Assembly (NCBI RefSeq): GCF_014698015.1
Contig: NZ_JACXBS010000002.1
Coordinates: 434,001 to 498,000, forward strand
Direction of reading: 5' to 3'
Length of the DNA: 64,000 bases
Source of the DNA: Kocuria sp. cx-455
GTDB taxonomy: Bacteria > Actinomycetota > Actinomycetes > Actinomycetales > Micrococcaceae
Part shown: positions 2,892 to 23,043 of the stretch, piece after piece
How the letters are laid out: each line of letters begins with the position of its first letter
Position numbering within the stretch: position 1 is the first letter of the stretch
Notes under the pieces: model-generated
Databases searched by the model: none
Seen by the model: only the letters and a program-made list of their open reading frames with translations
What the model was told of the DNA's origin: nothing
Program-made: the position numbers and the translations under genes

Positions 2892-2926
2892 AAAGTCTCC
2901 TATCCATTCATTCTAGTCCGATCAAC

Positions 2927-2953: not shown

Positions 2954-2996
2954 ATATCGATCGGTGGGCGTGGAATCGCTCAGCTTCGATCCAGTC

Positions 2997-3033: not shown

Positions 3034-3042
3034 ATCGAAGGA

Positions 3043-3384
3043 TCAGGCCATGTTGGCGGCGTACTTGGCTGGATCGGAGTCGAAGGTCGGTCCGCAGCCT
3101 GGGCAGCAGAGCCAGTAGCGCTGCCCGTCGTAGTCACGGAAGAGGCCCTTTTCTTCGGCGTCCTGTTTGTTGACCGGATTGCCGACCATGACGGGGCAGG
3201 TGGTCATGTCGTCGCTTCCTTCGACGAGAAGGTTTTCGCGATGGCCGGAATTCGCGGCGTGGTTCTCTGCGCCGGTCGTGCCGCAGCAGCCGGATCCTGC
3301 GCTGACCGGTGCCTCGGCTGCGGATGTCTCGGTTGCGGGGGAGGTGCTGCAGCAGCTGGTGGGTGCCTGGTCTTCGATTCTCAT
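3043..3384 (-). CDS. Cys-rich YHS-domain metal-binding protein
   Basis: A small protein downstream of copA. The C-terminal 54 residues form a YHS/TRASH-like domain starting MTTCPVMVGNPV and containing WLCCPGC, with Cys residues placed to bind a metal. From the ATG at 3384 the protein has 113 residues and an extra N-terminal segment with two further Cys pairs (TSCCST and SGCCGT). An alternative ATG at 3207 has a better ribosome binding site (GAAGGAAG) and would give only the YHS domain. The longer form is preferred because it starts 49 nt after the copA stop and its cysteine pairs look functional. Likely a cytoplasmic copper-binding or copper-handing protein; its partner is unknown. Confidence 0.7.
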   Translation of the reverse strand: MRIEDQAPTSCCSTSPATETSAAEAPVSAGSGCCGTTGAENHAANSGHRENLLVEGSDDMTTCPVMVGNPVNKQDAEEKGLFRDYDGQRYWLCCPGCGPTFDSDPAKYAANMA

Positions 3385-3433
3385 TCTCGGTGGATGCCTT
3401 TCGTGTGTTCGGATGATGGTTGGTTCTGCGGCG

Positions 3434-5722
3434 TCACTGCTTGGCGACGCTGCGGAACCCGCGCAGGCGGAGGCTGTTGCCGACGACGAAGACGCTGGAG
3501 AACGCCATCGCCGCGCCTGCGAGCATGGGGTTGAGCATGCCCAGCGCCGCGACCGGAATGGCCGCGACGTTGTAGGCGAAGGCCCAGAACAGGTTCGACT
3601 TGATCGTGCCCAGGGTCCTGCGGGAGAGCCGGATCGCGTCGACCGCGGCCCGCAAGTCGCCCCGCACGAGGGTGATGTCGGAGGCCTCGATGGCGACGTC
3701 GGTGCCGGTGCCCATCGCCAGGCCAAGGTCGGCCTGGGCGAGGGCGGGGGCGTCGTTGACGCCGTCGCCGACCATCGCGATGACCTTGCCCGCGTCCTGG
3801 AGGCGGGTAACGACATCCACCTTGTCCTTGGGCAGGACCTCGGCGATGACCTTTTCGATGCCGACCTCGGCGGCGATCCGCTTGGCCACGGCCTCGTTGT
3901 CGCCGGTGAGCAGGACCGGGGTGAGGCCCAGGTCTTTCAGGCCCTGGATCGCCTCGGCGCTGGTGGGCTTGACGGCGTCGGCGACGACGAGGATTCCGCG
4001 GGCCTGTCCGTCCCAGCCGACGGCGACGACGGTCTTGCCCTCGTCCTCGGCTGCGGCCTTGGCGGCGGCGACGTCGGAGGAGAGGTGCTGCGACCAGTCG
4101 GCCAGCAGGGACTCCCGGCCGACGAGCACGCCGCGGCCGTCGACGACTCCCTGGACGCCCTTGCCCTCGATGTTCGCGAAGTCCTCGGGAGTGGGCAGCT
4201 GCCCGATCTCCTGGACCGCGCCCTTGGCGATGGCCTGGGCGATGGGGTGCTCGGAGGCGTCCTCCAGAGCGCCTGCCAGGCGGAGCAGCTCGGCGCGGTC
4301 GACGCCGGGCTCGGTGATCGCCTCGACCAGGGTCATCTTGCCGGTGGTGACGGTGCCGGTCTTGTCGAGGACGATAGTGTCGACCTTGCGGGTGGATTCG
4401 AGAACCTCGGGACCCTTGATCAGCACGCCCATCTGCGCGCCGCGACCGGTGCCGACCAGCAGGGCGGTGGGAGTGGCCAGGCCGAGGGCGCAGGGGCAGG
4501 CGATGACGAGGACCGCGACCGCTGCGGTGAAGGCGGCGGAGACGGGGAACCCGGCACCGAGCCACGCGCCGAGGGCGATGACCGAGATGGCGATGACGAT
4601 CGGAACGAACACGCCAGAGATCCGGTCGGCCAGGCGCTGGACCGCGGCCTTGCCAGTCTGGGCGTCCTCGACGAGCTTGGCCATCTGTGCCAGTTGGGTG
4701 TCCGACCCGACGCGGGTCGCGCGGATGACCAGGCGGCCGCCGGCGTTGACGGTCGCGCCCGTGACCGGGTCGCCGGCGACGACCTCGACTGGCACGGACT
4801 CTCCGGTGAGCATGGACGCGTCCACGGCCGACGTTCCGGAGGCGACGGTGCCGTCGGTGGCGATCTTCTCACCTGGGCGGACGACGAACTCGTCGCCGAC
4901 GGCCAGATCGGAGGTCGGGATCTTGACCTCGGCCCCATTGCGCAGAACCGAGACTTCCTTCGCGCCGAGCTCGAGCAGGGCGCGCAGCGCGGCACCGGCC
5001 TGGCGCTTGGAGCGCTTCTCGAAGTAGCGGCCGGCGAGGATGAACATCGTCACCCCGGCCGCGGCTTCGAGGTAGATGTTGCCCGCGCCGTCGGAGGGAG
5101 CGATGGTGAACTCGAAGGGATGCGTCATGCCTGGCGTCCCGGCGGTGCCGAGGAACAGGGCGTAGAGCGACCACAGGAACGCCGCGGTCGTGCCCATGGA
5201 GATGAGGGTGTCCATGGTCGCGGTGCCGTGGCGCAGGTTGGTCCACGCTGCCTTGTGGAACGGCCAGGCCGCCCAGACGATCACCGGTGCGGCCAGGGCC
5301 AGGGAGGCCCACTGCCAGTAGGTGAACTGGAGCGCAGGAACCATGGCCATGGCGATCACCGGGACGGTGAGCACGATTGCGCCGATGAGGCGGTGCTTGA
5401 GCGATGTCAGCTCGGAGTCGGGAGCCTCACCATCGTCCGTGGTCGGGCCCGACGGCGTCGCGTCCTTGGGCTTGGGCATGGCAGCGGTGTAGCCGGTCTT
5501 CTCGACCTCGGCGACCAGCAGGGCGGGGTCGTACCCGTCGGGCACGGTGACCTTGGCCTTCTCGGTGGCGTAGTTGACCGTGGCGGAGACACCGTCGAGC
5601 TTATTGAGCTTACGCTCGATCCGGTTCGCGCAGGAGGCGCAGGTCATCCCGCCAATCTCGAGCTCGATGCCGGCGTCCGCGACTAGCGGCGCTTGGGTGT
5701 TCGCTGCAGCTTGGGTGCTCAC
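3434..5722 (-). CDS. copA: CopA-type Cu(I)-exporting P1B-ATPase
   Basis: A 762-residue Cu(I) efflux pump. One N-terminal heavy-metal domain carries GMTCASC (residues 25-31). The membrane metal site is CPC (about 409-411), the phosphorylation site DKTGT is at about 453, and GDGVNDAP is near 650. MxxSS-type substrate residues were not checked. The start is GTG, with GGAAAGGA upstream. The gene lies between the HVHP-repeat protein (upstream, 50 nt gap) and the YHS gene. Together with CopB it gives the island two copper ATPases of different classes: CopA for cytoplasmic Cu(I), CopB probably for other ions. Confidence 0.95.
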
Positions 5723-5772
5723 CGCGTGTCCTTTCCTGTTGCTTCTTCGTCGACGGACTGGCCCTTTGGGGA

Positions 5773-6720
5773 TCAGTGGCCGCCCGAGTGTGATTCGTCG
5801 TCTGCCTGGGTGCCGTCGCCGTGCCCGGCGTCGACCACGAACTGTGCGGTGCGGACCTTGCCGTCGATCTGGAAGTCCAGGTACAGCAGGTATCGGCCGG
5901 CGGTGGGGACCTCGGCGGCGAAGCTGACGTCTGGTCCTCCGGTCGACCCCGCTTGGGGTTCGTCGCCGGCGGGGTGCACGTGCAGGTAGGCCAGGTCACC
6001 CTCGCGCAACGCGACCAGGTGGCCAAATGCGCCGAGGTACGGCTCGAGCGCGGTGACCGGCTTGCCGTTGCGCTCGACGGTGGCCGTCAGGTCGCTCGTG
6101 CTCCCGGCGTTTAATTCTCCGTCCAGGGTGACGGTGTACCCGTCGACCTCGTCGGTGCGCGAGACCGTCGCCTCGACCGGGGCGTAGTCGCCGGCGACCT
6201 CGACGGCACGGGTGAGCGTGACGCCCTCGGCGTCCTTCCCGGCGGGGGTGAAGTCGGCGTAGACGCGGTAGGTTCCTGCCTCGTCCCAGTTCCACGACGG
6301 CACCGACCAGGTGCCGGTGGCCTCGTCCAAGTCCGGGTGCACGTGGCGGAACTGCGTCCCGTCGGTGCGCACCACGATCAGGTGAAGATCCTTCTCATGA
6401 GTCCTCGTGTACTCCGTCACCGGCTTCCCGTCCTCATCGAGGATCCGGAAGCTCAGTTTGCCGGCATCATTGGTGCCTGATGGGGCCGTGACGGGAGAGA
6501 GGACGTAGCCGGCAGCGCTGGCCGAGACGCCGTTCATCGCGTGCTCCATGTTCTGCTCCTCCGTGTCCCCGTGACCCTCGCCGTGCGAGCCCGTGTCGCT
6601 GCTCTTGGCCCAGGCGGCCAAGACGCTGTCGGGGACGACGACGCCGGCGAGCCCGAAGGCCGCGCCGAACGCCACCACCAGCCCAGCGCCGTAGGCCGCG
6701 AGCCTGACCGGTGCCTTCAT
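5773..6720 (-). CDS. Membrane-anchored protein with two HVHP repeats, copper cluster
   Basis: A 315-residue protein with one N-terminal membrane segment (about residues 7-35). A His/Met-rich stretch follows (about 44-63), then two beta-rich domains that each carry an HVHP motif (near 126 and 247) after a similar LHLIVVR or GHLVALR strand. The C-terminus is His/Asp-rich. I do not recognise a named family with certainty. The fold may be cupredoxin-like or FixH-like. The histidines suggest extracellular copper binding, possibly capture or hand-over to an oxidase or ATPase. The start codon shares one base with the copZ stop (TGATG), so it is translationally coupled to copZ. Confidence 0.8.
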
Positions 6721-6929
6721 CAGACGCGAACCGCCGTATAGCCGGCTTCCTCGACCGCGGCCAGGACCTTCGCGTCGTCGACCTCGCCGGAGGCGGAGAC
6801 GACGAGCTTGCCGGTCTGCGCGCTGACCTGGATATCGGTGACGCCAGAGATCTCGCTGACCTCCTCGCGGACCGACATCTCGCAGTGCCCGCAGGTCATG
6901 CCCGTCACCTGGTACTCGTTCGCAGTCAT
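6720..6929 (-). CDS. copZ: Copper chaperone CopZ
   Basis: A 69-residue, single heavy-metal-associated domain with the Cu(I) site GMTCGHC near residues 10-16. It is the usual length for CopZ, which carries Cu(I) to the CopA N-terminal domain and to copper sensors. It is the first gene of the copZ-HVHP-copA-YHS unit, with a strong GAGGAGG ribosome binding site. Two CsoR-like operators lie upstream. Confidence 0.92.
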   Translation of the reverse strand: MTANEYQVTGMTCGHCEMSVREEVSEISGVTDIQVSAQTGKLVVSASGEVDDAKVLAAVEEAGYTAVRV

Positions 6930-6949
6930 CGCATAACCTCCTCAATTTG

Positions 6950-6968
6950 GGTACCCCCGGTGGGTACC
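6950..6968. promoter_or_regulatory. CsoR-like operator in the copZ leader
   Basis: Perfect 7-bp inverted repeat GGTACCC (6950-6956) and GGGTACC (6962-6968) with a 5-nt centre. It has the same spacing as the other copper operators in the window and lies just downstream of the predicted copZ transcription start. Confidence 0.6.
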
Positions 6969-6982
6969 TGTGTGAGTGCAAC

Positions 6983-7010
6983 CGTATACCCCTGACGGGT
7001 ATTCCCGCAA
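6983..7010 (-). promoter_or_regulatory. copZ operon promoter with CsoR-like operator
   Basis: Minus-strand TTGCGG (7010-7005) and TATACG (6988-6983) are separated by 16 nt. The spacer holds ATACCC (6986-6991), 5 nt, GGGTAT (6997-7002). This is the same promoter design as at 2927-2953. Confidence 0.6.
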
Positions 7011-7054
7011 GGGGATGCGGACTCGCCGCTGAATGATCCCCACGTGTCGAGGGG

Positions 7055-7074
7055 ATACACCACCGGGGTATGCT
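7055..7074 (+). promoter_or_regulatory. Promoter and CsoR-like operator of the DUF6153 gene
   Basis: The imperfect inverted repeat ATACAC-N5-GGGTAT (7055-7071) runs into a TATGCT -10 box (7069-7074). The GTG start of the gene lies 6 nt after the -10 box, where the transcript should begin, so the mRNA is probably leaderless. No convincing -35 box was seen. Confidence 0.5.
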
Positions 7075-7080
7075 GGGGCT

Positions 7081-7518
7081 GTGGAGACCGCGACCGATGA
7101 ACCCTGCCGCAGCCGGCACTGGCTGCAGCTGATCATTCTTACGGCGCTGCTGATCACGGGTCTCCTCGGCATGCACGCGCTGGTCGGCGGACCGGCAGCG
7201 GCGACGACCCCCATGGCGTCGCCGGCTCACGCGTCCTCGCAGTCGCCCGACATGACGGGCATGACGTCTATCGCCTCCATGTCGAGCGCGACCGGAGCAC
7301 AGGGTCCGGTGCACGGCTCCGGAGGCTGCGCAGACGCCATGAACAGCGGCGACTCCACCTGTGTCTCCGCGCCTACGACCCAGAGCATTCCGGCCCTCCC
7401 CGTTCCGTCCGTCGCAGCTGTGCCCACACTCGTCTCTGCGCCCATGCCGTCGTCGCCGTCCGAGACGCCCCGCCGGTTCGCGCTGACGCATCTGGAGCTG
7501 TCGATCTACCGAACGTGA
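7081..7518 (+). CDS. DUF6153-like small membrane protein
   Basis: A 145-residue protein from the GTG at 7081. One membrane segment (about residues 13-33) contains the LLGMHAL motif that I associate with DUF6153. The remainder is a Met/Ser/His-containing exterior region (for example SPDMTGMTSIASMSS) with two cysteines in the middle. Function unknown. It is divergent from copZ, shares the operator region, and is followed by the multicopper oxidase, so a role in copper handling outside the cell is inferred. Confidence 0.65.
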   Translation: METATDEPCRSRHWLQLIILTALLITGLLGMHALVGGPAAATTPMASPAHASSQSPDMTGMTSIASMSSATGAQGPVHGSGGCADAMNSGDSTCVSAPTTQSIPALPVPSVAAVPTLVSAPMPSSPSETPRRFALTHLELSIYRT

Positions 7519-7724
7519 GCACTGAGGAGCGCCGATGCGGCGCTCCTCAGTCAGCCACCTCGGCGGGTCCACGACCCTGCCGTGCCTGCCACGACACCGT
7601 GTCCCAAAACGCTGGCCCATCTTCCGGGCCCAGGCGGCTCTGTGCCTCCGATCACCCGTGTTCGTCGAGCGCGCGGGCGCGATGTCGTGGTCCCGTTCAC
7701 CATCGACACAGAAGGACATCACCC

Positions 7725-9233
7725 ATGCATTCCACCCTGAATCGTCGACAGTTCCTGTCTGTCGGCGCATTGCTGCTGACTGCCGCCGGCTTCGCCGGAT
7801 GCAGCACCACTGCCACTAAGACAACCTCGTTCATTGGGTCCAGCAGCACCGCAGTCACTTCCGCGGAGGCGAAGCGCCGCCGCACCGGAACGATCGTGCG
7901 GCGTGCGCTGACCGCCGAGCCGGTCACCCTGGACCTCGGAGGGAAGACCGCCAAGACCTGGGCCTATCGGGGAGCGTCGGCGACCAAGCCGCTGCGCGGC
8001 AACGTCGGTGACTCCCTGAAGGTCGACTTCACCAACGACCTGCCCGATCCGACCAGCGTCCACTGGCACGGGCTGGCGCTGCGCAACGACATGGACGGAG
8101 TGCCGAGCCTCACCCAGGAGCCCATCGAGCCCGGTGGGTCGTTCGACTACGAGTTCACGCTGCCCGAGCCGGGCACGTTCTGGTTCCACCCGCATGTCGG
8201 CGTGCAGCTCGACCGCGGCCTGTATGCGCCGCTGATCATCGACGATCCGCACGAGAAGGGCGACTACGACCAGGAATGGGTGATCGTTCTTGATGACTGG
8301 CTGGACGGCGTCACCGCGACGCCCGACGAGGTCCTCGCCGAGCTCGAGAAGGGGATGATGGACCACGGCGGCATGGACATGGGGCCGATGCGGATGGGCA
8401 ACACCCTGATGGGCGCGACCTCGCCGCTACTCGGCGGCGACGCCGGCGACGTCTACTACCCCCTCTACCTGATCAACGGCACGCCTGCGAACGACCCCCA
8501 GACCTTCACCGCCAAGCCCGGGGAGCGGATCAGGCTGAGGATCATCAACGCCGGCGGCGACACCGCCTTCCGCTTCGGGGTCGGCGAGCACCCGCTGACG
8601 ATCACCCACACCGACGGATTCCCCGTCGAGGCCTTCGAGGCCGAGAGCGTCGTGCTCGGCATGGGGGAGCGCTACGACGCGATCATCACCGCCGGCGACG
8701 GCGCGTTCGCGGTCGTCGCCGAGGCCCTGGGGAAGCAGGACCAGGCCCTCGCCGTCCTGCGCACCGCATCGGGCAGCGCACCCGCGAAGGACACGACGCT
8801 GCCGCAGACGAAAAATCCCGCCACAGCGGCCGACCTCAGGGCAGCCGGCGAGGTCGCACTTCCCAAGCGCGGCGTCGACCGCACGCTCACCCTCGAGCTG
8901 ACCGGAAGCATGGAAAAGTACGACTGGGCGATCAACGGCAAGCGCATGAACATGGACCAACCGATGCGCGACGCCCTCGGCATCGCCGACGGGGAGCGGG
9001 TCGCCCTCGAGTTCAAGAACTCGACGACGATGTGGCACCCGATGCACCTGCACGGGCACACCTACCAGCTTCCCGGCGGCGGGCCGCGCAAGGACACCTC
9101 GATCGTCCTGCCCGGCACGACGCTGCGCGTCGAGTTCGACGCCGACAACCCCGGGCGGTGGCTCACCCACTGCCACAACGTCTACCACGGGGAAGCCGGG
9201 ATGATGACGACGATCGCCTACCAGGAGAACTGA
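7725..9233 (+). CDS. Tat-exported lipoprotein multicopper oxidase
   Basis: A 502-residue multicopper oxidase, probably oxidising Cu(I) to the less toxic Cu(II) outside the membrane. The N-terminus has a twin-arginine motif (NRRQFL, residues 6-11) and a lipobox ending at Cys26. Type 2/3 copper ligands are HWHG (113-116) and HPH (155-157). The C-terminal copper sites are HPMHLHGH (438-445) and HCHNVYH with a downstream Met (482-493), which is complete for a laccase-type enzyme. A Met-rich patch (MMDHGGMDMGPMRMG) near residue 210 resembles the Met-rich regions of cuprous oxidases. The ATG at 7725 has GAAGGA upstream; longer in-frame starts would destroy the signal peptide. Confidence 0.93.
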   Translation: MHSTLNRRQFLSVGALLLTAAGFAGCSTTATKTTSFIGSSSTAVTSAEAKRRRTGTIVRRALTAEPVTLDLGGKTAKTWAYRGASATKPLRGNVGDSLKVDFTNDLPDPTSVHWHGLALRNDMDGVPSLTQEPIEPGGSFDYEFTLPEPGTFWFHPHVGVQLDRGLYAPLIIDDPHEKGDYDQEWVIVLDDWLDGVTATPDEVLAELEKGMMDHGGMDMGPMRMGNTLMGATSPLLGGDAGDVYYPLYLINGTPANDPQTFTAKPGERIRLRIINAGGDTAFRFGVGEHPLTITHTDGFPVEAFEAESVVLGMGERYDAIITAGDGAFAVVAEALGKQDQALAVLRTASGSAPAKDTTLPQTKNPATAADLRAAGEVALPKRGVDRTLTLELTGSMEKYDWAINGKRMNMDQPMRDALGIADGERVALEFKNSTTMWHPMHLHGHTYQLPGGGPRKDTSIVLPGTTLRVEFDADNPGRWLTHCHNVYHGEAGMMTTIAYQEN

Positions 9234-9239
9234 CGCATC

Positions 9240-9271
9240 AGGGCCGCGCACCTTACCGGGTGCGCGGCCCT
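9240..9271 (+). terminator. Terminator after the multicopper oxidase
   Basis: Perfect 13-bp stem (arms 9240-9252 and 9259-9271) with a 6-nt TTACCG loop, starting 6 nt after the stop codon. No T-tract follows. The stretch from 9272 to 9501 shows no gene that I can support. Confidence 0.7.
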
Positions 9272-9501
9272 GCGCCTCAATTGCGCGGACATGGCGTCTT
9301 CGTGACCCGGGGGAGACGGTCCGATGCCCCCGACGCGGCGCATCGGAACAGACAGTGCAGCACACGCCGCAACGTCGGTGAGTGTCGGACAGTGTCGATG
9401 GTGGTTCTGAGCGTGGTCATCGGGACTCCTTCGGCGTGTTTCGGCGGCCTCGTCGCGGGACGGGTCAGCCGCCGTCTCGGTGTACCTGCGGCGGGTGTCG
9501 G

Positions 9502-9543
9502 CGTTCGTGTCCGGCGGACTCATCCGTCCGCCGGACACGAACG
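9502..9543 (-). terminator. Strong terminator after the MFS exporter
   Basis: A perfect 17-bp inverted repeat (9502-9518 and 9527-9543), with one more C-G pair inside and a 6-nt loop. It lies 12 nt past the stop of the minus-strand MFS gene. Confidence 0.75.
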
Positions 9544-9555
9544 GTCGAGGATGCG

Positions 9556-11121
9556 TCACGACTCCTGAGCGGGCTCCTTCTCGGCGTCGACGTGAGCCTG
9601 CCCGGTGGGGCGGATGTGCCGCAGACCGATCGCGGCGATGAGCGCGGCAAGGGCGGCGATGATCGCGGAGGTGATCCCAGCGGCGTTCAGTCCGCTGGTG
9701 AACGCCTGCTGGGCCGCGGTCGTCAGTGCCTCTCCGACGTCGCCCGGCAGCTGTCCGGCGGCGGCGATGGCCCCGTCGATCCCGGTCTCGGCCGCGGCCG
9801 CCGCCTCCGGTGGCAGCCCATCGGGCAAGGAGTCGCTGATCTGGCTGCGATAGGCGGCGATCCCGATACTGCCGATGACCGCGACACCGAGTGAGATGCC
9901 CAGGTCGTTGACGGTCGTCGCGAGCCCGGAGGCACCGCCGGCCTTCTCCGGCGGGACCGAGCTCACCACCAGGTCCGTGGTCAGCGCCATGGAGGGCGCG
10001 ACCCCGGGGTAGGTGACGACGAAGCTCGCGATCACCAGCGCGAGACCGGTGACGGCGTCGAGCTGGGTGAACAGGATGTAGCCGACGACCTGGGTGAGCA
10101 GGCCCACGGCGATCACGTTGCCCGGCCGGAACCTCCGGGCGAGCATCGGCGAGAGGGTCGAGACGACGATGAGAACTGCCGCGGCAGGCAAAATCGACAG
10201 TCCGGCCTGCATAGGCGAGAGCCCTTGCACCTGCTGCAGGTACTGGGTGAACAGCGAATACACCCCACCCAGCGCCGCGGCCGAAAGAAGGAACACCGCG
10301 AGTGCTCCGCTGACGGTGCGGTTGGCAAACAGCCGGACGTCGAGCAGGGGCTGGGTCGCGCGCAGCTGCCGGATCACGAACCACAGCCCGACCAGTACTC
10401 CGGCGATCAGCAGGCCGATCGACGGGCCGGCCGGCTCCTGGGTGGCGAAGCGCTTGACGCCGTAGATGATGGCCAGCAGCGAAGCGACCAGGAGCAATGC
10501 GCTGAGCAGATCGATCTTCGCGGTCGGATCCTTGTGCTCAGGCAGCAGCAGCGGCGCGCCGATGGCCACCAGCGCCATCACGGGCACCGCGACCAGGAAC
10601 GTCGCCTGCCAGCCGGAGACCTCGAGCAGCAGGCCGGACAGCAGTGGTCCGAGGGCGACACCGGCGAAGATCCCGCCGGCCCAGACGCCGATCGCGACGC
10701 CTCGCGCCTTCGGGTCGGCGAAGAGCACGAAGATCAGCCCCAGCGTGGACGGGAGCATCATGGCTCCTCCCACGCCGAGGATGGCGCGCCAGGCGATCAT
10801 CAGCTCGGGACTGGTCGTCAGCGCCGCAGCGATGGACACGATTCCGAACAGGACCGCGCCGATCACCATAAGCAGACGCTTGCCGATCCGGTCGCCGAGG
10901 ACGCCCATCGCGACGAGGAATCCGGCCATGACGAACCCGTAGATGTCGAGAATCCACAGCAGCTGTGCGCTAGTCGGGTTCAGATCAGCAGCCATGTTCG
11001 GGGCCGCCAGGAACAAGATCGTCAGCATCATGAACAGCAGGGTCGACGGGATCACGAGGACCGCGAGCCCCCACCACTGCTTCGCCCCGGTCCGGGGTGC
11101 AGGTGCATTCGTCTCAGACAT
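9556..11121 (-). CDS. MFS multidrug exporter, DHA2 (14-TM, EmrB/QacA-like)
   Basis: A 521-residue drug:proton antiporter. It has about 14 hydrophobic segments and the MFS motif GDRIGKR after TM2 (near residue 80). Motif C-like glycine-rich segments and the long form separate it from 12-TM exporters. The ATG at 11121 follows a GGAGG site. It is divergent from a TetR regulator, with an inverted repeat in the shared promoter region, which is the usual layout for a substrate-induced exporter. The substrate is unknown; cationic drugs or biocides are typical of the family. Confidence 0.88.
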   Translation of the reverse strand: MSETNAPAPRTGAKQWWGLAVLVIPSTLLFMMLTILFLAAPNMAADLNPTSAQLLWILDIYGFVMAGFLVAMGVLGDRIGKRLLMVIGAVLFGIVSIAAALTTSPELMIAWRAILGVGGAMMLPSTLGLIFVLFADPKARGVAIGVWAGGIFAGVALGPLLSGLLLEVSGWQATFLVAVPVMALVAIGAPLLLPEHKDPTAKIDLLSALLLVASLLAIIYGVKRFATQEPAGPSIGLLIAGVLVGLWFVIRQLRATQPLLDVRLFANRTVSGALAVFLLSAAALGGVYSLFTQYLQQVQGLSPMQAGLSILPAAAVLIVVSTLSPMLARRFRPGNVIAVGLLTQVVGYILFTQLDAVTGLALVIASFVVTYPGVAPSMALTTDLVVSSVPPEKAGGASGLATTVNDLGISLGVAVIGSIGIAAYRSQISDSLPDGLPPEAAAAAETGIDGAIAAAGQLPGDVGEALTTAAQQAFTSGLNAAGITSAIIAALAALIAAIGLRHIRPTGQAHVDAEKEPAQES

Positions 11122-11250
11122 GGCGCACCTCCTTGTTCTGCGTCGTCGTTCTCATGGCTCCATTGGTCCTTTCGTTCTCGACAGGGTTGTCACGGGCCGG
11201 GAGGCCCTCAGCCGAAGTCAAGCATCGGTGTACGACTTCTAACCGCTATA

Positions 11251-11278
11251 CTAGTTCGTATATTCCCGTACGAGTTAG
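11251..11278. promoter_or_regulatory. Probable TetR operator between tetR and the MFS gene
   Basis: The imperfect inverted repeat CTAGTTCGTA (11251-11260) and TACGAGTTAG (11269-11278), 8-nt centre, two mismatched positions, sits just downstream of a plus-strand TATACT -10 box (11247-11252) and 9 nt before the tetR start. Confidence 0.5.
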
Positions 11279-11286
11279 AGGTGGGT

Positions 11287-11919
11287 ATGCCGAACGGAAA
11301 GGGCGCGGCCGGCGCTGGTGAACAGAAGCCGGTGCGGCGAGGAAAGACGGCCAACCAGAGGGCAGACGCCCAGCGCAATCGGGCGAAGATCCTCGCGGCG
11401 ACGCCGGATGCGCTCAGGAAGGACCCTGATGCCTCCGTCGCCGGCATCGCCGCCGAGGCGGGGGTCGGTCGGATGACCCTCTATGGGCATTTCAAGACGC
11501 GTGCCGAGCTCATCGACGCGACCCTCGCCGACAGCCTGGAACGAGCCGAGGCCGTCCTGGCCGACGTGCCTCTCGACGGTGATCCGGGCCAGGCGTTCGA
11601 GGCCCTGATCGCCCCGAGCTGGATGCTCCTGGAGCACATTCGCGCCGTGCTCGTGGTGGCTCAGCGCGAGCTGCAGCCGGCCCGCATCCGCGAGATGCAC
11701 GAGAAGGCCGAAGCCCGGATGCGGGGCCTTCTCGAGCGCGGCCAGCGCGAGGGCGTCTTCCGTGCGGATCTGCCTGTCGACTGGCTCCTCGCGGTCACTC
11801 ACCTGACCATGAACGCCGCAGCCGAGGAAGTCACCGCCGGCCGGCTCGACAGAGATGACGCTGCCCGCGTCATCGTCGTCACCCTGCACTCTGCCTTCGC
11901 CGCCAACGATCACAACTGA
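11287..11919 (+). CDS. TetR/AcrR-family transcriptional repressor
   Basis: A 210-residue regulator. A basic N-terminal tail (about 1-30) is followed by a helix-turn-helix in the first 80 residues (VAGIAAEAGVGRMTLYGHFKT). The C-terminal all-helical ligand domain does not point to a specific ligand. The ATG at 11287 has GAGGTGG upstream. It is divergent from the MFS exporter and most likely represses both genes. A GTG two codons upstream is an alternative start. Confidence 0.87.
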   Translation: MPNGKGAAGAGEQKPVRRGKTANQRADAQRNRAKILAATPDALRKDPDASVAGIAAEAGVGRMTLYGHFKTRAELIDATLADSLERAEAVLADVPLDGDPGQAFEALIAPSWMLLEHIRAVLVVAQRELQPARIREMHEKAEARMRGLLERGQREGVFRADLPVDWLLAVTHLTMNAAAEEVTAGRLDRDDAARVIVVTLHSAFAANDHN

Positions 11920-12028
11920 CCCGCCGAATCGCCGGCCAGGGCAATTCGTCGTCCTCGCGAGCCGAACGTGGGGCGGCCGGTGGCGTCTCGTGGGGCACTC
12001 ATCGATGCGCACTTACGTTCGAGTATGC

Positions 12029-12054
12029 AATAATCTGCGTATGGACGCAGATAA
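12029..12054 (+). promoter_or_regulatory. arsR promoter with an operator covering the start codon
   Basis: A perfect 8-bp inverted repeat, ATCTGCGT (12033-12040) and ACGCAGAT (12045-12052), has ATGG as its 4-nt centre, and that ATG is the arsR start. An AATAAT -10-like hexamer (12029-12034) lies 6 nt before the ATG. The regulator bound here would cover the transcription and translation start together. Confidence 0.6.
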
Positions 12055-12412
12055 GCAGATATGCGGGCTCGACCCCGACAGTCAGTACGTGGAACTTGCC
12101 GTCGAGGTGTTCGGGCTCCTCGCCGACGCGACCCGAGTCCGGATCGTCCTCGCGCTGCGTCGCAGCGACGAGCTGTCGGTGAACCACCTCGCCGAGAGCG
12201 TGGGCAAGTCGCCGGCCGCGGTGTCGCAGCACCTGGCGAAGCTGCGGATGGCCCGGATCGTGTCGACCCGGCAGGAGGGGCAGCGGGTGTTCTATCGGCT
12301 GGAGAACGAGCACGCCTCCCAGCTGGTGTCCGACGCGATCTTCCAGGCCGAGCACTCTGTCGCCAATGGGCAGGTCCCGGCACACCACCACGAGGAACGA
12401 GCAGAAGCATGA
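12041..12412 (+). CDS. ArsR/SmtB-family metal-sensing repressor
   Basis: A 123-residue winged-helix repressor with the core segments LADATRVRIVLAL and KSPAAVSQHLAKLR (recognition helix) typical of ArsR/SmtB proteins. Possible metal ligands are Cys9 near the N-terminus and a C-terminal HHH-containing tail (AHHHEERAEA). The ATG at 12041 fits best because an upstream ATG at 12005 lies outside the family alignment. There is no Shine-Dalgarno sequence, so the mRNA is probably leaderless. The stop overlaps the start of the cation exporter gene (ATGA), so the two form one unit. The probable signal is zinc, cobalt or nickel, inferred from the exporter. Confidence 0.88.
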   Translation: MDADKQICGLDPDSQYVELAVEVFGLLADATRVRIVLALRRSDELSVNHLAESVGKSPAAVSQHLAKLRMARIVSTRQEGQRVFYRLENEHASQLVSDAIFQAEHSVANGQVPAHHHEERAEA

Positions 12413-13503
12413 CGGAGCACAGCCACGCCCATCCGCACGCTGACCACGAGCAGGAGAGCGGAGCGTCCGCGCACGATCACGCGGATCGTGATCACGGCCA
12501 GGACCACGGGCATACGCACGGTCATGGCCATTCCCATGACCACGGCGAGCACGGTCACTCCCACCCGACGGGGTTCAAGGGCTTCCTGTACGGGATCTTC
12601 GTCCCGCACTCCCACGACGCCGCCGACTCGATCGACGACGCGATGGAAGCCCACTCCGAGGGAATCCGCGCGCTGAAGATCAGCCTGGTGCTCATGCTGG
12701 CAACGACCGTGCTGCAGGCCGCCGTCGTCGCGTTCTCCGGATCGGTAGCGCTGCTGGCCGACACGATCCACAACCTCTCCGACGCCCTGACCGCGGTGCC
12801 GCTGTGGATCGCGTTCGTGCTGTCCCGTCGGGTCGCCACGCGGAAGTACACCTACGGCTTCAACCGGGCCGAGGACCTCGCCGGGCTGTTCATCGTCCTG
12901 ATGATCGCCCTGTCGGCAGTCATCGCCGCTTGGGAGGCGATCGACCGCATGCTCAACCCCAGGCCCATGGAGAACATCGGCTGGGTGATCGCCGCCGGCA
13001 TCATCGGCTTCCTCGGCAACGAGGCGGTCGCGGTCTACCGCATCCGCGTGGGCAGGAAGATCGGCTCGGCCGCCCTGGTCGCAGACGGCATCCACGCCCG
13101 CACCGACGGATTCACCTCTCTGGCCGTCGTGGCCGGCGGGATCGGCGTGCTGCTCGGCTTCCCGCTCGCCGACCCGATCGTAGGCCTGCTGATCTCGGCC
13201 ATGATCGCGGTGCTGCTGGTCGGTACCGTGCGCTCGGTCGGCCGACGGCTGATGGATGGCGTCGAGCCGGAGCTCGTCGACCGCGCCGAGCACGCCCTGG
13301 AGCATCTGGCCGAGGTCGAGTCGGTGGAACGGGTGCGGATGCGCTGGGTCGGGCACAGGCTCCATGGCGACGCGCTCGTCCGCACCTCCGCGACGAGCCT
13401 CTCCGACGCCGACCGGCTGGCCGCGGAGGCGGAGAGTTCGGTGAAGCAGCACATGCCGAATGTGGATGAGATGTCTGTCCGAGTGGCCCCGGTCTGGCGG
13501 TGA
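12409..13503 (+). CDS. CDF-family cation diffusion facilitator (Zn/Co/Ni exporter)
   Basis: A 364-residue proton-coupled divalent-metal exporter. The N-terminus (about 4-52) and the loop at 66-70 are very rich in histidine. Six membrane segments follow. The paired metal-site motifs are HNLSD (121-125, TM2) and HARTD (229-233, TM5), with the C-terminal cytoplasmic domain after about residue 285. Both sites are HxxxD, as in Zn or Co exporters. It is co-transcribed with the ArsR sensor (4-nt overlap). It is the last intact gene of the metal island. Confidence 0.92.
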   Translation: MTEHSHAHPHADHEQESGASAHDHADRDHGQDHGHTHGHGHSHDHGEHGHSHPTGFKGFLYGIFVPHSHDAADSIDDAMEAHSEGIRALKISLVLMLATTVLQAAVVAFSGSVALLADTIHNLSDALTAVPLWIAFVLSRRVATRKYTYGFNRAEDLAGLFIVLMIALSAVIAAWEAIDRMLNPRPMENIGWVIAAGIIGFLGNEAVAVYRIRVGRKIGSAALVADGIHARTDGFTSLAVVAGGIGVLLGFPLADPIVGLLISAMIAVLLVGTVRSVGRRLMDGVEPELVDRAEHALEHLAEVESVERVRMRWVGHRLHGDALVRTSATSLSDADRLAAEAESSVKQHMPNVDEMSVRVAPVWR

Positions 13504-13888
13504 CTGGCTCCGTCATGCGGCTGGTCGTTTAGGAGCGGCTCGTATGCATCTCCTTCTCGAGACGAGACCGATGCCCCGCGATCATGCGAGGGCCGGTCTC
13601 AGAAAACTGTCCCGTTAGGGCGAGCGTCCAAGGCGGGCTACAGGAGGCGACGACCGGCAGGTGTTGAAGATCTGGAGGAGCGCCGACGCCCGAAGAGGAG
13701 TGGCTCGACGTCGCCGCCGCGGCCGAATGCCTCCATTGAAGCGCCCGGACCACCCCGGCGACTCACCTCAGTATCATGGTCTTCAACGCGTCCTGCCCTG
13801 CTGGATTGGGAGTGCGAGTCGAGTGCCGATTCATTCGCGAGTCGACTGGCGACTCGACTCGCTTGTGAGTGAACGTCACAAACTTGTC
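13504..13888. other. Non-coding right end of the metal island, up to the mutM junction
   Basis: No supportable gene. The stretch holds a GAGACCG/CGGTCTC inverted repeat, a CTCAGAAAAC string reminiscent of Tn3-type ends, and a patch of GAGTCG(A) repeats. The homology to mutM begins at 13889, so the island boundary must lie at or just before that point. The reading frame open from 13661 into mutM has no recognisable content before 13889. Confidence 0.6.
13564..13624. repeat. Inverted repeat and possible Tn3-type end remnant
   Basis: GAGACCG (13564-13570) is inverted as CGGTCTC (13594-13600), immediately followed by AGAAAACTGTCCCG. The word CTCAGAAAAC recalls the terminal repeats of Tn3-family transposons, from memory. 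It could equally be a terminator for the cation exporter gene. Confidence 0.25.
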
Positions 13889-13893
13889 GAGTC
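13815..13893. repeat. Cluster of GAGTCG(A) repeats at the island end
   Basis: CGAGTCG(A) occurs at 13815-13821, 13838-13845 and 13888-13893, and inverted around 13851-13861. GCGAGTCGA (13837-13845) and TCGACTCGC (13854-13862) form a perfect 9-bp inverted repeat with an 8-nt centre. The last copy lies at the first mutM codons (GAG TCG). The layout resembles recombinase arm sites at an attachment end, but no integrase gene is in view. Confidence 0.45.
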
Positions 13894-14059
13894 GGGGTAC
13901 TTCGCGCGCTCCCTGAACGCCTACGGGCGGGCGGGACAACGGTGCCCGCGGTGTGAGGCCGCGGGCACCGGGGGAACTATTCTGCGCGAACGGTTTGCAA
14001 ATCGTTCATCGTATCGCTGCGACCGCTGCCAACGGCGTCCGCGGCGCGCTCGGCCCTGA
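13889..14059 (+). pseudogene. mutM: mutM (fpg) 3' remnant: zinc-finger tail only
   Basis: The last 56 codons of formamidopyrimidine-DNA glycosylase. Recognisable parts are [16 protein letters not shown], the first zinc pair [14 protein letters not shown] and the second pair CDRC, ending QRRPRRARP. This matches the C-terminal DNA-binding zinc finger of Fpg proteins. The catalytic N-terminus (PE) and the helix-two-turn-helix core are absent; the frame upstream of 13889 is unrelated. The finger has about five extra residues (AAGTG) between its cysteine pairs, encoded by the hairpin at 13941-13969. The tail overlaps the 3' end of oleD on the other strand by 83 nt. Position before smc matches the usual actinobacterial rnc-mutM-smc order. 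It cannot make an active glycosylase as it stands. Confidence 0.85.
13941..13969 (-). terminator. ole operon terminator inside the mutM zinc-finger remnant
   Basis: A perfect 10-bp stem GGTGCCCGCG (13941-13950) and CGCGGGCACC (13960-13969) with a 9-nt loop starts 8 nt past the oleD stop. On the plus strand the same bases encode part of the mutM zinc finger. Confidence 0.65.
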
Positions 14060-15320
14060 CGCGCTGATCGTCGGCGACCTCCGTGACCCGTTCGGCCGCC
14101 ACCGATCCGGTGTGGCGCTCGGGGCGGGGATTGTCCTGGTAATACTGGGCCAGGCGCTCCATGCCCTCATCGATCGTCACGGACGGTTGCCAGTCCAGCA
14201 GCTTGTGCGTGTCCTTCTGATCGAACCAGTGCGCGGTGGACATCTGCTCGGCCAGGAACTCGGTCATGGGCGGCTCGGAGTCGTGTCCGCGCAGCTTGGC
14301 CGGAATGTAGGGCCAGACCTTCTCGATGACCTTGCCCGCAATACGGGCGACCTTGCCCGGGACGGACCGAGTGGGGGCCTCGACCCCGGCGGCCGCGCAC
14401 ATGCGGGCGACCAACTCGCCCACGGGGCGGGGCTCGCCGTTGGTCACGACAATGGCCTTGCCGTGAGTGACGTCGATGCGCTCGAGGCACCGGGCAATGG
14501 CCTCGGATGCGTTGTCGATGTACGTGGTGTCGATCATGGCCGCGCCGTGGTCAACGTTGGGTAGACGGCCCGCGGCTGCGCGGTCCACGATCCGTTCCAC
14601 GAGTTGGGTGTCGCCCGGCCCCCACACGATGTGCGGGCGGATGGCGGCGACACTCAGGCCGCGGCCATCGGTTTCCAGGGCCAATAGTTCGGCGGCGGCC
14701 TTGGAACGCGCGTAGTGTCCGCGCGCGGTGCGTGGGTTGGCGGGCTCGGCGCCCGCGCCCTCGATCGAGGCCCCGGCGTGCGCCACGGACGGGGAGGAGA
14801 CGAACACGACGTTCTCCACACCGGCCTCCTGCGCGCAGCACAGCAGCACGCGCGTGCCCGTGATGTTCACGTGCACGAAGTCTTCCCAGTCACCGGCGAA
14901 CGAGACCTTGGCGGCCAGGTGCACGACGTCGTCCACGCCCTCCAGCGCCTTGGTCATGGCGTCCGGGTCGGTCACAGATCCGAGCACCTCGTCCACGCCC
15001 TCGCGGTTGGCCACGCTGGCGTGTCCGCGCTGGAACACGCGCACGCGCCAGCCCTTCTCCAGCAGGGTGCGCGCGACCTCCCCGCCCAGCATGCCGGACG
15101 CACCGGTCACCAGGACGGTGCGTCCCTTCCCGGTCAGCTCGCCCTCGGTCGCGGTAGAGCCGGCCTCGGCGCGTGGCGAGGCGTTCGTGGAGTCGGGGGC
15201 GGACGACGTCGCTGTTGGTGACGTGCTCGCGCGCTCGTCCTCACCGCCCCCGGGGGTGCCCGCACGGTGGCGGCCGGCGCGGGAGACGGGGTCGGGGGTG
15301 ATTTCTGGTGAATTGCTCAC
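13977..15320 (-). CDS. oleD: OleD, NAD(P)H-dependent 2-alkyl-3-ketoacid reductase
   Basis: Reduces the 2-alkyl-3-ketoacid made by OleA to the beta-hydroxy acid in olefin biosynthesis. The 447-residue protein has an extended-SDR Rossmann motif TGASGMLGG (about residues 72-80) and the catalytic YxxxK (HYARSK, near 205). The first 65 residues are a Ser/Thr/Ala/Pro-rich disordered extension, and the C-terminal 50 residues are charged and probably unstructured. The GTG start overlaps the oleBC stop by 4 nt, so translation is coupled. The 3' end runs antisense to the mutM remnant. Confidence 0.88.
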
Positions 15321-19389: not shown

Positions 19390-22300
19390 GTGCACTTGAA
19401 GACCCTCACCGTGCGCGGTTTCAAGTCCTTCGCTTCGGCCACCACCTTCCATTTCGAACCCGGTGTCACCGCCGTGGTGGGCCCCAATGGTTCCGGGAAG
19501 TCGAATGTGGTGGACGCGCTGTCCTGGGTGATGGGCGAGCAGGGTGCCAAGTCCCTGCGCGGCGGCACAATGGAAGACGTCATCTTCGCCGGTACCTCCG
19601 GCCGTTCCGCGCTCGGGCGCGCTCACGTGTCACTGACCATTGACAACGCGGACGGCGCCCTGCCCATTGAATACAGCGAAGTCACCATTTCCCGCACGCT
19701 CTTCAGAACCGGCGGTTCCGAATACGCCATCAACGGTCGCTCGTGCCGCCTGCTGGACATCCAGGAACTGCTCTCGGACTCGGGCCTGGGCCGCGAAATG
19801 CACGTGATCGTGGGACAGGGCCAGCTGGACCGCATCCTGCAGGCCACTCCCGAGGACCGCCGAGGCTTCATCGAGGAGGCCTCCGGAATTCTCAAGCACC
19901 GCCGCCGCAAGGAGAAGACCCTTCGCAAGCTCGATTCCCTGCAGGCCAATCTGGACCGCCTGGAGGATCTGGTGGGGGAGATCCAACGGCAGTTGACCCC
20001 GCTCGGCCGCCAGGCACGCACCGCTCGGAAGGCACAACGGATCCAGTACGACGTGCGCGATGCCAAATCCCGATTGCTCGCGGACGACCTCGAGCAGGCA
20101 CGTGCGGCGTTACGGACCGACAGTGCCGCCAGCGCCACGACCCGGGCGGAGAAACAACGCCTCGAACAACTCACGGAGCAGCTCGCGGTGCGGCTGCGGG
20201 AGACCGAGGCGCACGCGGCTCGTACGGCACCCGTGCTCAATGCCGCCCGCGCCAGCTGGTACGAACTCAGTACCGTGCGTGATCAATTCCGCGCGCTCGC
20301 CTCGTTGGCGGGGGAGCGACGCAGGCTCCTGGGATCTGCCGAACCCGAACAGGACACGGGTCAGGACGCCACCCGGCTCGAGGAACACGCCGAACGCAGC
20401 CGCGCGGAAGCGGCCGGACTCCAAGAGCGGGTTACCGAGTCTCGGGAGCACCTGGCCACCGTCGAAGCGGCCCGCCACGAGGCCGAAGAAACGGCGCGGG
20501 CAGCCGAGCAGCGCACCGCTCATCTGGTGCGCGAGGCCGCTGACCGTCGAGCGGGCCAGGCGAAATTGGCGGCCGCCGTGTCCTCCGCTCGATCCGGTTT
20601 GACCGCCGCGGAAGCCGATGTTGAACGGCTGCGCGTGGAGATCAACGACGTGATCGCTCGTTCCGAGAGTGCCCGCGGGGAACACGCTCAGCTGAGCGAA
20701 CGCGCCGACAGTCTGCGCACGGCAGTCGCGCGCAGCGCCGAGCTCGCCGAACACGCTCGTGAGACCACCGAGCAGGTCGAAACCGCCGCCCGCCAGGCCG
20801 AGGCCGAACGCCAGCGGGTGCTGCGCGAACAGCACTCCGTGACCGTTCGCCTGGACACCCTGCAGCAGTCAATGCCGCAACCCGATGGTTCGCGGGCCGT
20901 CTCGGCAAGTCACGGTGACTCCGTGCTGGGGGCGGTATCGGACGCAATACGCGTGGCCGAGGGCTGGGAACGCGCCGTGGGCGCCGCACTGGGGCCGTGG
21001 TCCGAGGCGCTCGCGGTTGCCTCCCACACTCGGGCGGCGGACATCTTCGCCTCGCTGCGCACCGAGGAATCGGGGCGCGTCAACGTGCTGGTGGCTTCCG
21101 GGCACGACGCCGCGGGCGAGCCACCCGCCCTGAACCTCCCCGAGGGAGCGGTTCCGGCGGTCTCGGCGTTGTCCGGTTCGCCACAGGCCGCCACCGATTC
21201 AGCGGCACAGGCGATCCTCACTGCGGTGCGCGGCCTGCTGGCCACCACGATCCTGGTTCCCGATGCCCACACCGCGGTGGCCGTGATGGAGGGCGTCGCG
21301 GCGTCGGGAGCCACGGGGATCCGTGCCGTGACCGCGAACGGCGATGTCTTCGGCGCCCACCGAGCGCAGGGCGGCGCGGCAGAAGCCGCCGGCAGTCTCG
21401 AGATCCACGCGCAGATCGACAAGGCCCGTTCGGAGGCCGAGCGATGGTCGCGCGAATTGGCGACGGCGGCCGCGGCGGCCGAGCACGCCGAGGCCCTGCG
21501 CATCGAGGCCACCGCCAAGGCCCGTGAAGCCGGCGGGCTCGCACGGGACCGGCAGAAGGCCGCCTCCGAGGCCGCAAATGCCCTGGGTCGGGCCGAGGCG
21601 GTGCTGGCCTCGGCGGATGCGGAACTGCAGCGCCGTCGTGAGGCCCTTGCCACCGCGCAGCAACGGCTCGATGAACGCGAAGCACTCTTGCGGGACGCGG
21701 TGGCCCGCGCCGAGGCCGTGGACAGCGGCGACGAGGAGACCCTCGAGCGGGATCAGTTGGAAGCGGCGGCGGCGAAGGACCGGGCCGATCGCGCGGCACG
21801 GCAAGCGCGCGAAACCGAAACCCAGGCGAGACTGGCCCTGCGCGGGTTGGAGGAGCAGCATCGCTCGGCGGACTCGCGGGCCACGTCTCAGGCACGTGCT
21901 GCCCGGGCCGAGCGCGTGGCGCAGGCCGAGGCCGCCCGGCGCGCCGAACGACGCCGCGTGCGGGCCACCATTGCGCAGGCCGTGTCTCAGGCCGCCGAGC
22001 ACCTGCGGTTGCGCGCCGAGGAGTCCGTGATCGAAGCGGCCCGGGTCCGAGATGCGGTGGACGTGGAACGCGCCGGACTGGACGAGGCGGCCGGGCGCCT
22101 GCGCGCCGAGCGCGACGATCTGGGCAAACAACTCAACGCGGTGACCGAGCAATTGCACCGTGAAGAATTGGACCTGGCGCAGCGGCAGGCGAGGCTCGAG
22201 GCGCTCGAGAAGTCCTCGCTCGAAGAACTGGGGATGACCCCGGACTACCTGGTGAATCACTACGGACCGCACCTGCCCGTCCCCGACGCCGACGCCGTGT

Positions 22301-23043
22301 TGGAAGCCGCCCAGGACGCGGAGGAGCGCGGCGAAACCCAGGACCCCTCGCGCATGCCGGCCATGACGGATCCCGGTGCGCCGTTCCGGCGCGCCGAGCA
22401 GGAGACCCGGTTGCGGAGGGCGGAAAAGCAGCTCAAGGCGCTGGGCAAGGTGAATCCCCTGGCGCTGGAGGAATTCGCGGCGCTGGCGGAACGTCATGGT
22501 TTCCTGGTGGAGCAGCTGGAGGACGTCAAGAACTCCCGCGCGGATCTGCGCAACATCATCCGCCAGGTGGACGAGCATGTGGAACGCGTGTTCACCGAGG
22601 CTTACCGGGACACCGCCGAGCAATTCGTGCAGGTCTTCGCGACCTTGTTTCCCGGGGGGGAGGGGCGGCTGCGCCTGACCGACCCGGATGACATGCTCAC
22701 CACCGGCGTGGACGTGGAGGCGCGCCCGGCGGGCAAGAAGATCAAGCGACTGTCGCTGCTGTCCGGTGGCGAGCGCTCGCTGACCGCGCTGGCGTTGCTC
22801 GTGGCCATCTTCAAGGCCCGGCCCTCGCCGTTCTACGTGATGGACGAGGTCGAGGCGGCCCTGGACGATCGCAACCTGGGTCGCCTGCTGAGCATTTTCC
22901 AGCAGCTGCAGGAAAGTTCGCAGCTGATCATCGTGACGCACCAGAAGCGCACCATGGAGATCGCCGACGCCCTGTACGGCGTGTCCATGCGCGGTGACGG
23001 GGTGAGCTTGGTGGTGGGGCAGAAGCTCGCGGAGCTGCGCTGA
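19390..23043 (+). CDS. smc: Chromosome segregation protein SMC
   Basis: A 1217-residue condensin ATPase that organises the chromosome with ScpA and ScpB. Walker A GPNGSGKS is at 31-38. Two long coiled coils, very rich in Ala, Glu and Arg, flank a hinge region (about 510-650). The ABC signature LSGGERS is at about 1124, and Walker B YVMDE follows near 1150. The length is normal for bacterial SMC. GTG start with AGGAG 8 nt upstream. Unusually, oleA-oleBC-oleD separate it from its normal neighbour mutM. Confidence 0.97.
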   Translation: MHLKTLTVRGFKSFASATTFHFEPGVTAVVGPNGSGKSNVVDALSWVMGEQGAKSLRGGTMEDVIFAGTSGRSALGRAHVSLTIDNADGALPIEYSEVTISRTLFRTGGSEYAINGRSCRLLDIQELLSDSGLGREMHVIVGQGQLDRILQATPEDRRGFIEEASGILKHRRRKEKTLRKLDSLQANLDRLEDLVGEIQRQLTPLGRQARTARKAQRIQYDVRDAKSRLLADDLEQARAALRTDSAASATTRAEKQRLEQLTEQLAVRLRETEAHAARTAPVLNAARASWYELSTVRDQFRALASLAGERRRLLGSAEPEQDTGQDATRLEEHAERSRAEAAGLQERVTESREHLATVEAARHEAEETARAAEQRTAHLVREAADRRAGQAKLAAAVSSARSGLTAAEADVERLRVEINDVIARSESARGEHAQLSERADSLRTAVARSAELAEHARETTEQVETAARQAEAERQRVLREQHSVTVRLDTLQQSMPQPDGSRAVSASHGDSVLGAVSDAIRVAEGWERAVGAALGPWSEALAVASHTRAADIFASLRTEESGRVNVLVASGHDAAGEPPALNLPEGAVPAVSALSGSPQAATDSAAQAILTAVRGLLATTILVPDAHTAVAVMEGVAASGATGIRAVTANGDVFGAHRAQGGAAEAAGSLEIHAQIDKARSEAERWSRELATAAAAAEHAEALRIEATAKAREAGGLARDRQKAASEAANALGRAEAVLASADAELQRRREALATAQQRLDEREALLRDAVARAEAVDSGDEETLERDQLEAAAAKDRADRAARQARETETQARLALRGLEEQHRSADSRATSQARAARAERVAQAEAARRAERRRVRATIAQAVSQAAEHLRLRAEESVIEAARVRDAVDVERAGLDEAAGRLRAERDDLGKQLNAVTEQLHREELDLAQRQARLEALEKSSLEELGMTPDYLVNHYGPHLPVPDADAVLEAAQDAEERGETQDPSRMPAMTDPGAPFRRAEQETRLRRAEKQLKALGKVNPLALEEFAALAERHGFLVEQLEDVKNSRADLRNIIRQVDEHVERVFTEAYRDTAEQFVQVFATLFPGGEGRLRLTDPDDMLTTGVDVEARPAGKKIKRLSLLSGGERSLTALALLVAIFKARPSPFYVMDEVEAALDDRNLGRLLSIFQQLQESSQLIIVTHQKRTMEIADALYGVSMRGDGVSLVVGQKLAELR

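Follow-up and report, generated by a model that had tools for sequence, protein, structure and literature searches.

Two tandem elements inserted in mutM of Kocuria sp. cx-455 leave an uninterrupted mutM beside rnc and displaced mutM 3' ends

Staphylococcal cassette chromosome (SCC) elements are inserted by serine recombinases at the 3' end of rlmH, a conserved housekeeping gene that stays whole after insertion. They stack in tandem, carry resistance and defence cargo, and include some elements without a recombinase of their own. The mutM elements described here resemble SCC and the Enterococcus cassette chromosome in that the target gene is kept whole, in their stacking and in their resistance or defence cargo. 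They fall outside SCC in that the target is mutM and not rlmH and the hosts are actinobacteria. In addition, a single integrase of 482 amino acids, found in another Kocuria genome (G019), stands in place of the ccr pair, and the two elements at our locus, termed A and B, contain no serine recombinase domain. Furthermore, the replaced end, about 41 codons, differs strongly in sequence from the original one.

The main text of a survey of large serine recombinases (PMC10083194) groups targets as genes disrupted by insertion and contains no occurrence of mutM or glycosylase. As in the elements presented there, the mutM elements show an integrase beside one attachment site, a conserved protein-coding target and a two-base crossover; unlike those elements, they rebuild the target gene, and most of those seen have no integrase. 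Islands at the 5' end of dusA (PMC4482086) and at the 3' end of trmE (PMC8409611) share with the mutM elements the site-specific insertion in a conserved housekeeping gene and differ in the gene targeted. A mutM element of Salinibacterium (locus L151, about 11 kb), which carries an integrase, a MobA/VirD2-type relaxase and type I restriction genes, resembles integrative and mobilizable elements, whereas the searches run on A and B recognised neither an integrase nor a relaxase. A and B also differ from integrative conjugative elements, having no integrase and, among the 24 island ORFs put to Pfam (five without a match), no conjugation gene. As for integrons, whose integrase IntI is a tyrosine recombinase, a PF00589 search found no tyrosine recombinase in the region.

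The window analysed is the whole stretch of 64,000 nucleotides at G000:C2:434001-498000, where G000 is the genome of Kocuria sp. cx-455 (assembly of 3.06 Mb in 10 contigs, completeness 99.8%, contamination 0.02%). The features that the argument needs are listed below in window coordinates.

1..13894, + strand: right part of element B with copper/zinc/arsenic cargo (Pfam on chosen ORFs)
55-2331 and 3434-5722: two large P-type ATPase frames, recognised by eye
7515..9233, + strand: multicopper oxidase (Pfam Cu-oxidase_3, Cu-oxidase_2, Cu-oxidase)
12490..13503, + strand: cation diffusion facilitator, the last gene before the junction (Pfam Cation_efflux, 1.9e-44)
13561..13888, + strand: right end of B, with repeats of the GAGTCGACTC type (alignment to the right end of A)
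13872..13894, + strand: the half of the attachment site that the element carries, AACGT, 15 bp, TCG (motif AAYGT-N15-TCGGG)
13895..13896, + strand: crossover point, GG after GAGTCG; attR and right end of the island (three-genome junction comparison)
13897..14059, + strand: original mutM 3' end of the host, now displaced; 53 complete codons and a stop, including the four cysteines of the zinc finger (frame, Pfam, native-type long spacer)
13977..15320, - strand: oleD-like host gene (Pfam Epimerase/3Beta_HSD), whose ORF runs antisense into the displaced tail
19390..23043, + strand: smc, host gene (ORF; homologue downstream of mutM in 10 of 11 Kocuria loci)

The original prediction, made from the window, was that a mutM tail with all four cysteines begins abruptly at 13889 after unrelated island DNA. 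The tail is as described: 13889-14059 (+) holds 56 in-frame codons followed by TGA, with four zinc-finger cysteines, and scores 24.6 bits against Pfam zf-FPG_IleRS (curated cut-off 21.3). The sequence on its left side has no relation to mutM and is part of the metal-resistance region. By Pfam the fragment is a zinc finger only and not a complete glycosylase; the longer ORF from 13661 that contains it gave no Pfam match at 0.001. The abrupt junction is real, and its position shifts by six bases, as comparison of three genomes places the crossover at the GG of 13895-13896, with host-specific sequence starting at 13897. The fragment therefore opens with two island codons (GAG TCG), and 53 codons and the stop belong to the host. 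The four cysteines and the long spacer between them have the form that prevails among Kocuria MutM proteins (21 of the 26 compared). In the current MutM of cx-455, in a second, inner tail described below, and in the MutM of G001, G002, G004 and G019, the spacer is shorter by five residues. The fragment is 64% identical to the end of the present cx-455 MutM, and the inner tail 78%.

The remainder of the gene lies outside the window. A profile search for the H2TH family gave its best match 26 kb to the left, where rnc (L001:327-1031) is followed by an uninterrupted mutM of 297 codons (L001:1036-1929 = G000:C2:407527-408420), about 39.5 kb left of the detached end. Thus the suggestion to look left of the window for rnc and the 5' part of mutM led to both, in a gene that is complete with a new 3' end. 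An island has indeed inserted in the 3' part of mutM and parted rnc and most of mutM from smc, as had been proposed. The picture of one single island event did not survive, however: a search of the intact MutM against 27 Kocuria genomes revealed in cx-455 a second displaced end inside the island, at C2:414753-414887, which rules out that reading. The interval resolves into two tandem elements in mutM, A (C2:408292-414762, 6.5 kb) and B (C2:414762-447895, 33.1 kb), both inserted at the codons for Gly-Glu-Ser-Gly. At its left boundary, A supplies a foreign, complete mutM 3' end that keeps the frame, the domains and the zinc finger. B likewise brings a complete mutM 3' end at its left boundary, one that is now displaced, and on its right B abuts the original end. 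When the host flanks are joined, an uninterrupted MutM of 309 amino acids results, which would be the gene before insertion.

The right ends of A (C2:414451-414755) and B are 78% identical over 329 columns, so that A and B can be assigned to one element family. A 111-base query from the end of B matched the end of A at 83% over query bases 1-107, and Kocuria G024 at 72% over bases 26-111. From the nesting of the elements, the simplest order is that B entered first and that A would then have entered the mutM rebuilt by B. Directly to the right of the inner tail lies a gene for a 324-aa protein of unknown family with two cysteine pairs near its start (L005:11020-11994, G000:C2:415019-415993), which recurs next to mutM-like genes in G291. 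It gave no match in Pfam (searched as the longer 396-aa frame, 1e-6) or in PADLOC. As a candidate for a shared mobility gene it was rejected, being confined among the fetched loci to carriers of A and B and to G291.

The host context was also compared. The original prediction expected rnc-mutM-smc; in Kocuria the order is rnc-mutM-oleD-oleBC-oleA-smc, with smc lying downstream of mutM within the stretch compared in 10 of 11 Kocuria loci. An OleD homologue follows mutM in all 11, with a distance to the aligned part of 131-315 bp in five, 1.2-1.9 kb in five and 4.6 kb in one. The gap size thus varies, and nothing of 39 kb stands between mutM and oleD in these 11 loci. In Kocuria carniphila CCM 132 (G002, NZ_NOIT01000004.1), a pair of genes that by eye look like hipBA (L050:1767-3295) lies between a short-type mutM end and oleD; no displaced tail was found there, and the locus is perhaps an element with a decayed right tail.

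The pair A+B (39.6 kb) occurs at the same mutM base in two further genomes, G219 and G139, at 99.67% identity over 39,925 columns and 98.77% over 40,912 columns, respectively, with some flank included in both alignments. Both probably are Rothia, since their genus group also holds Rothia kristinae NBRC 15354 (G104). At the left junction, the sequence is host-specific up to GARTCS and identical from GG-AAGAAGC onwards; at the right junction, identity extends through GTCGAGTCGGG and the bases after it are host-specific. The crossover is hence confined to the GG at both junctions in all three genomes, the sharp insertion expected of a large serine recombinase. Over the 600 bp left of the crossover, identity to the two genomes is 70.6 and 70.9%, compared with 100% over the 600 bp inside. 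At the right end, identity inside is 99.8%; across the next 150 bp of host tail, in the stretch that corresponds to 13897..14059, the two carriers are only about 60% identical to cx-455. G219 holds a further element to the right, giving three in tandem. At the level of sequence, the comparison demonstrates two nested elements, a displaced original end and, for three genomes from two genus groups, insertion at a single base.

Intact and displaced ends differ in the spacing of one motif at the attachment site. The motif AAYGT lies 10 bp before the crossover codon (TCSGG) in 16 of the 17 intact mutM genes scored, the exception being G010 with AACAT. In displaced ends, it lies exactly 15 bp before the codon in 19 of 25. 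Among these 19 are the end in the window, that of G019 and those at the four other named integrase loci. Copies of the A and B ends in G219 and G139 account for four, many others are probably related by descent, and the 25 leave out the ends of G325. The six without the 15-bp spacing are G004 and G133a (both degraded), G309 (12 bp), G059, G239 and G194. AAYGT at 10 bp was absent from all five element-borne mutM-like genes scored. A model of serine integrase sites given in PMC3783163, with motifs for several integrases, puts the zinc-domain motif 5 bp nearer the crossover in attB than in attP. The offset of 5 bp observed here, with attP longer than attB, agrees with that model; the comparison covers the left half-site, and the fit was noticed after alignment and was no blind prediction. 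AAYGT-N15-TCGGG occurs once in the window, where 0.27 occurrences are expected, and at least once in 24 of 100 shuffles; the weight therefore lies on its position and conservation and not on its rarity. A palindromic attB around the GG was considered and discarded, as dyad symmetry is weak (rank 9 of 405 positions, 10 genes).

The cargo differs between elements. Pfam assigns to A half an Abi_2, Abi_C, MerR, a redoxin and a pyridine-nucleotide disulphide oxidoreductase, which we read as mercuric reductase. The Abi_2 gene lies leftmost in A (L001:1880-2587), matches only profile positions 2-86 of 184 and looks truncated. In B, Pfam recognises ArsR, a flavin monooxygenase-like protein, MFS and LMWPc/ArsC proteins, an SBF-family (ACR3-like) transporter, an amino-acid permease, a P-type ATPase, CueP, the multicopper oxidase and the CDF transporter. 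Related elements carry a YobI-like NTPase (G004), an AAA_13 protein (G010), type I restriction genes (G210) or type III restriction genes together with a SNF2 helicase (G291), which makes the copper/zinc genes one cargo among several. Gene clustering over 20 assembled loci, with the 40 largest clusters viewed, revealed no cargo cluster in more than five loci.

The strongest of the rival explanations, itself very unlikely, is that A+B is an inert remnant that arose once and was carried whole on a larger vector, for example a conjugative plasmid or a phage. It draws on the failure to recognise mobility genes in A+B, and on a Microbacterium plasmid that matches 55% of the left 8.2 kb of B at 78% identity. 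The features under this match are arsenic and transport genes, that is, cargo only, and a vector by itself leaves the single-base insertion point in mutM of three genomes unexplained.

A site-specific recombinase was sought by genome searches with PF00589 and PF00239 and by Pfam on chosen ORFs, and none was found in A or B. Movement by a tyrosine recombinase, for instance host XerC/XerD or an integrase elsewhere in the genome, would accord with the presence of such enzymes in 17 of 17 genomes searched, cx-455 having three, none of them in the island. We nevertheless consider it highly unlikely. None of the tyrosine recombinases in the 17 genomes maps to the interval from mutM to its displaced end; in this set, G024 and G291 have that interval broken across contigs, and G001 and G002 lack a displaced tail. 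Furthermore, a serine integrase sits at the site in close relatives, and the half-site spacing fits serine integrases.

That serine integrase was recognised in Kocuria sp. S28M_Sa_16 (G019, JAUNHG010000002.1), which gave the sole PF00239 match between mutM and a displaced tail in six Kocuria genomes, a set that includes G024, with its interval broken across contigs, and G002, which lacks a displaced tail. The protein of 482 amino acids has Resolvase and Recombinase domains, and its gene starts about 230 bp from the crossover. Ten family genomes outside Kocuria, searched with PF07508 and PF00589, showed no match inside the element interval, which in G291 is split. Against 295 family genomes at 1e-60, the G019 integrase gave 11 matches, namely itself and ten relatives at 39-41% identity; of the 11, only that of G019 adjoins a mutM tail, and the ten have none within a flank of 1.5 kb. 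The cx-455 genome contains no relative at E 1e-60. Its other serine recombinase-like gene, a 554-aa frame (L064, C2:765950-766432) with similarly scoring matches in G004 and G010, has no mutM tail in the surrounding 8 kb.

A wider scan of named genomes, from which the best 80 of 85 relatives were taken and 79 distinct loci kept, connects the enzyme with mutM. The five loci at 58% identity or more, the G019 query included (relatives 58-65%), all abut a displaced mutM end. They are from Leucobacter chromiireducens, Salinibacterium sp. SWN167, Gordonia sp. ABSL49_1, Gordonia spumicola and Kocuria G019. The displaced end lies just upstream of the integrase in all five, at a distance of about 40 bp in the first four. 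No displaced mutM end was found at E 0.01 in the other 74 loci (30-57%), of which L155, L160 and L163 hold less than 160 bp upstream, too little to tell, and the one at 57% is a partial match at a contig end. Judged by these sequences, the clade is tied to the mutM site, and these relatives (L150-L154), in contrast to A and B, carry a recombinase. L150 and L151 extend as far as the 3' part of a mutM, at a distance of about 11 kb, so their elements measure about 11 kb; L150 encodes a type ISP restriction enzyme and a PF00910-family helicase. Small HTH-like proteins directly 3' of the integrase (L150:11643-11951 and L151:11679-12047; 102 and 122 aa, no Pfam match) are candidates for a directionality factor. 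Among viral contigs, eight relatives of the integrase were found at 32-42% identity. A search with the mutM tail gave mutM-type matches in 45 plasmid records (25 of them listed) and 22 phage records, with two match places in the unannotated 86-kb phage record MT835574.

These observations can be combined into one mechanism. A mutM-specific large serine integrase, of the type found in G019, Leucobacter, Salinibacterium and Gordonia, would catalyse insertion. B would insert in the original mutM, supplying its own 3' end and leaving the host tail at its right end; A would then insert in the rebuilt gene, so that the 3' end of B becomes the inner tail and A supplies the present end. Because each rebuilt mutM is a fresh target, elements can stack. 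A and B, having no integrase gene, would have been moved in trans by an enzyme from elsewhere. The detached fragment is then the host's own original mutM 3' end, displaced by site-specific insertion. This explanation as a whole is very probable; within it, the role of the serine integrase and its action in trans are inferred. Homologous recombination through flanking mutM or smc DNA after transformation, with the extra tails as by-products, is most unlikely: conserved mutM could supply the homology and most elements show no recombinase, but the boundary lies at the same base on both sides in three genomes with flanks just 60-71% identical, and replacement would bring donor flanks along and leave no native tail beside a foreign one. 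More tentatively, and with somewhat more doubt than confidence, our preferred explanation may extend to a modular 'mutM cassette' system of Micrococcales, in which recombinase-free cargo cassettes, each starting with a mutM 3' end of its own, would be inserted, stacked and moved between genera in trans by the mutM-specific serine integrase.

Other Micrococcaceae repeatedly show displaced mutM ends as well, and defence genes often lie next to them. Detached tails were found in 5 of 27 Kocuria genomes at E 0.001 (G000, G004, G010, G019 and G024), G007 giving weak MutM matches only. A query with the mutM tail matched 339 of 345 family genomes. In 24 genomes picked, among the matches listed, for many or short-type tail matches and searched again, 10 carried detached tails (G059, G133, G135, G139, G210, G219, G239, G291, G309 and G325) and G194 a partial one; given this choice, the counts represent no family-wide frequency. 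In G059 (L140:1985-2987) and G239 (corresponding part of L141), only about 1 kb separates mutM from the displaced tail; these intervals lack the 15-bp motif and contain by eye a GNAT-like and a PhzF-like gene. Five genomes (G133, G135, G210, G291 and G325) have in their arrays an additional mutM-like gene of a different type (L143:2345-3178, L144 at G291:C1:768735, L146, L142, L137 and L147), which is present twice in G291 and degraded in G325. The G133 copy lies far from the native mutM-smc locus and has displaced tails of its own.

The integrity of mutM in cx-455 bears on the remaining claims. All three domains of the 297-aa protein, Fapy_DNA_glyco, H2TH and zf-FPG_IleRS, exceed their Pfam cut-offs, as befits a member of the MutM/Fpg family, and residues 1-295 align with solved MutM proteins (1l1t; best E 3.8e-42). 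That the island broke mutM and left the strain without a working MutM, as the detached tail in the window alone would suggest, is scarcely credible beside this whole gene next to rnc. The gene is not lost in the strain, and the proposed link between copper genes and a missing MutM falls with it. An uninterrupted mutM with rnc and no island junction nearby had been named as the outcome that would speak against the original prediction; the gene was found, and the junction sits in that very gene. The hybrid MutM is probably active, and selection presumably favours keeping mutM whole. A rebuilt mutM would spare the host its 8-oxoguanine glycosylase.

A literature search, with most subscription journals and preprints outside its scope, returned no paper joining a serine integrase with mutM and attB, or with formamidopyrimidine and integrative elements. 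A table in PMC12467314 lists, without comment there, fpg genes of Brevibacterium in islands that contain merR-merA-merB or ctpG-cmtR, and these may be further instances of what is described here.

What looked like the loss of a DNA repair gene thus becomes its opposite, a mode of insertion that preserves it. Detached mutM ends and extra mutM copies in this family are possible scars of mobile elements and no proof of gene loss. The Gly-Glu-Ser-Gly codons of mutM mark an attachment site that is both precise and conserved, by which the limits of islands can be set in many actinobacteria, and a candidate integrase family with predictable sites can be named. Insertion at mutM also gives a reason why metal-resistance and phage-defence genes gather downstream of this gene. 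If the cassette reading is true, defence and metal-resistance genes would share a common dock in one repair gene, whose C-terminal zinc finger would have been swapped repeatedly.
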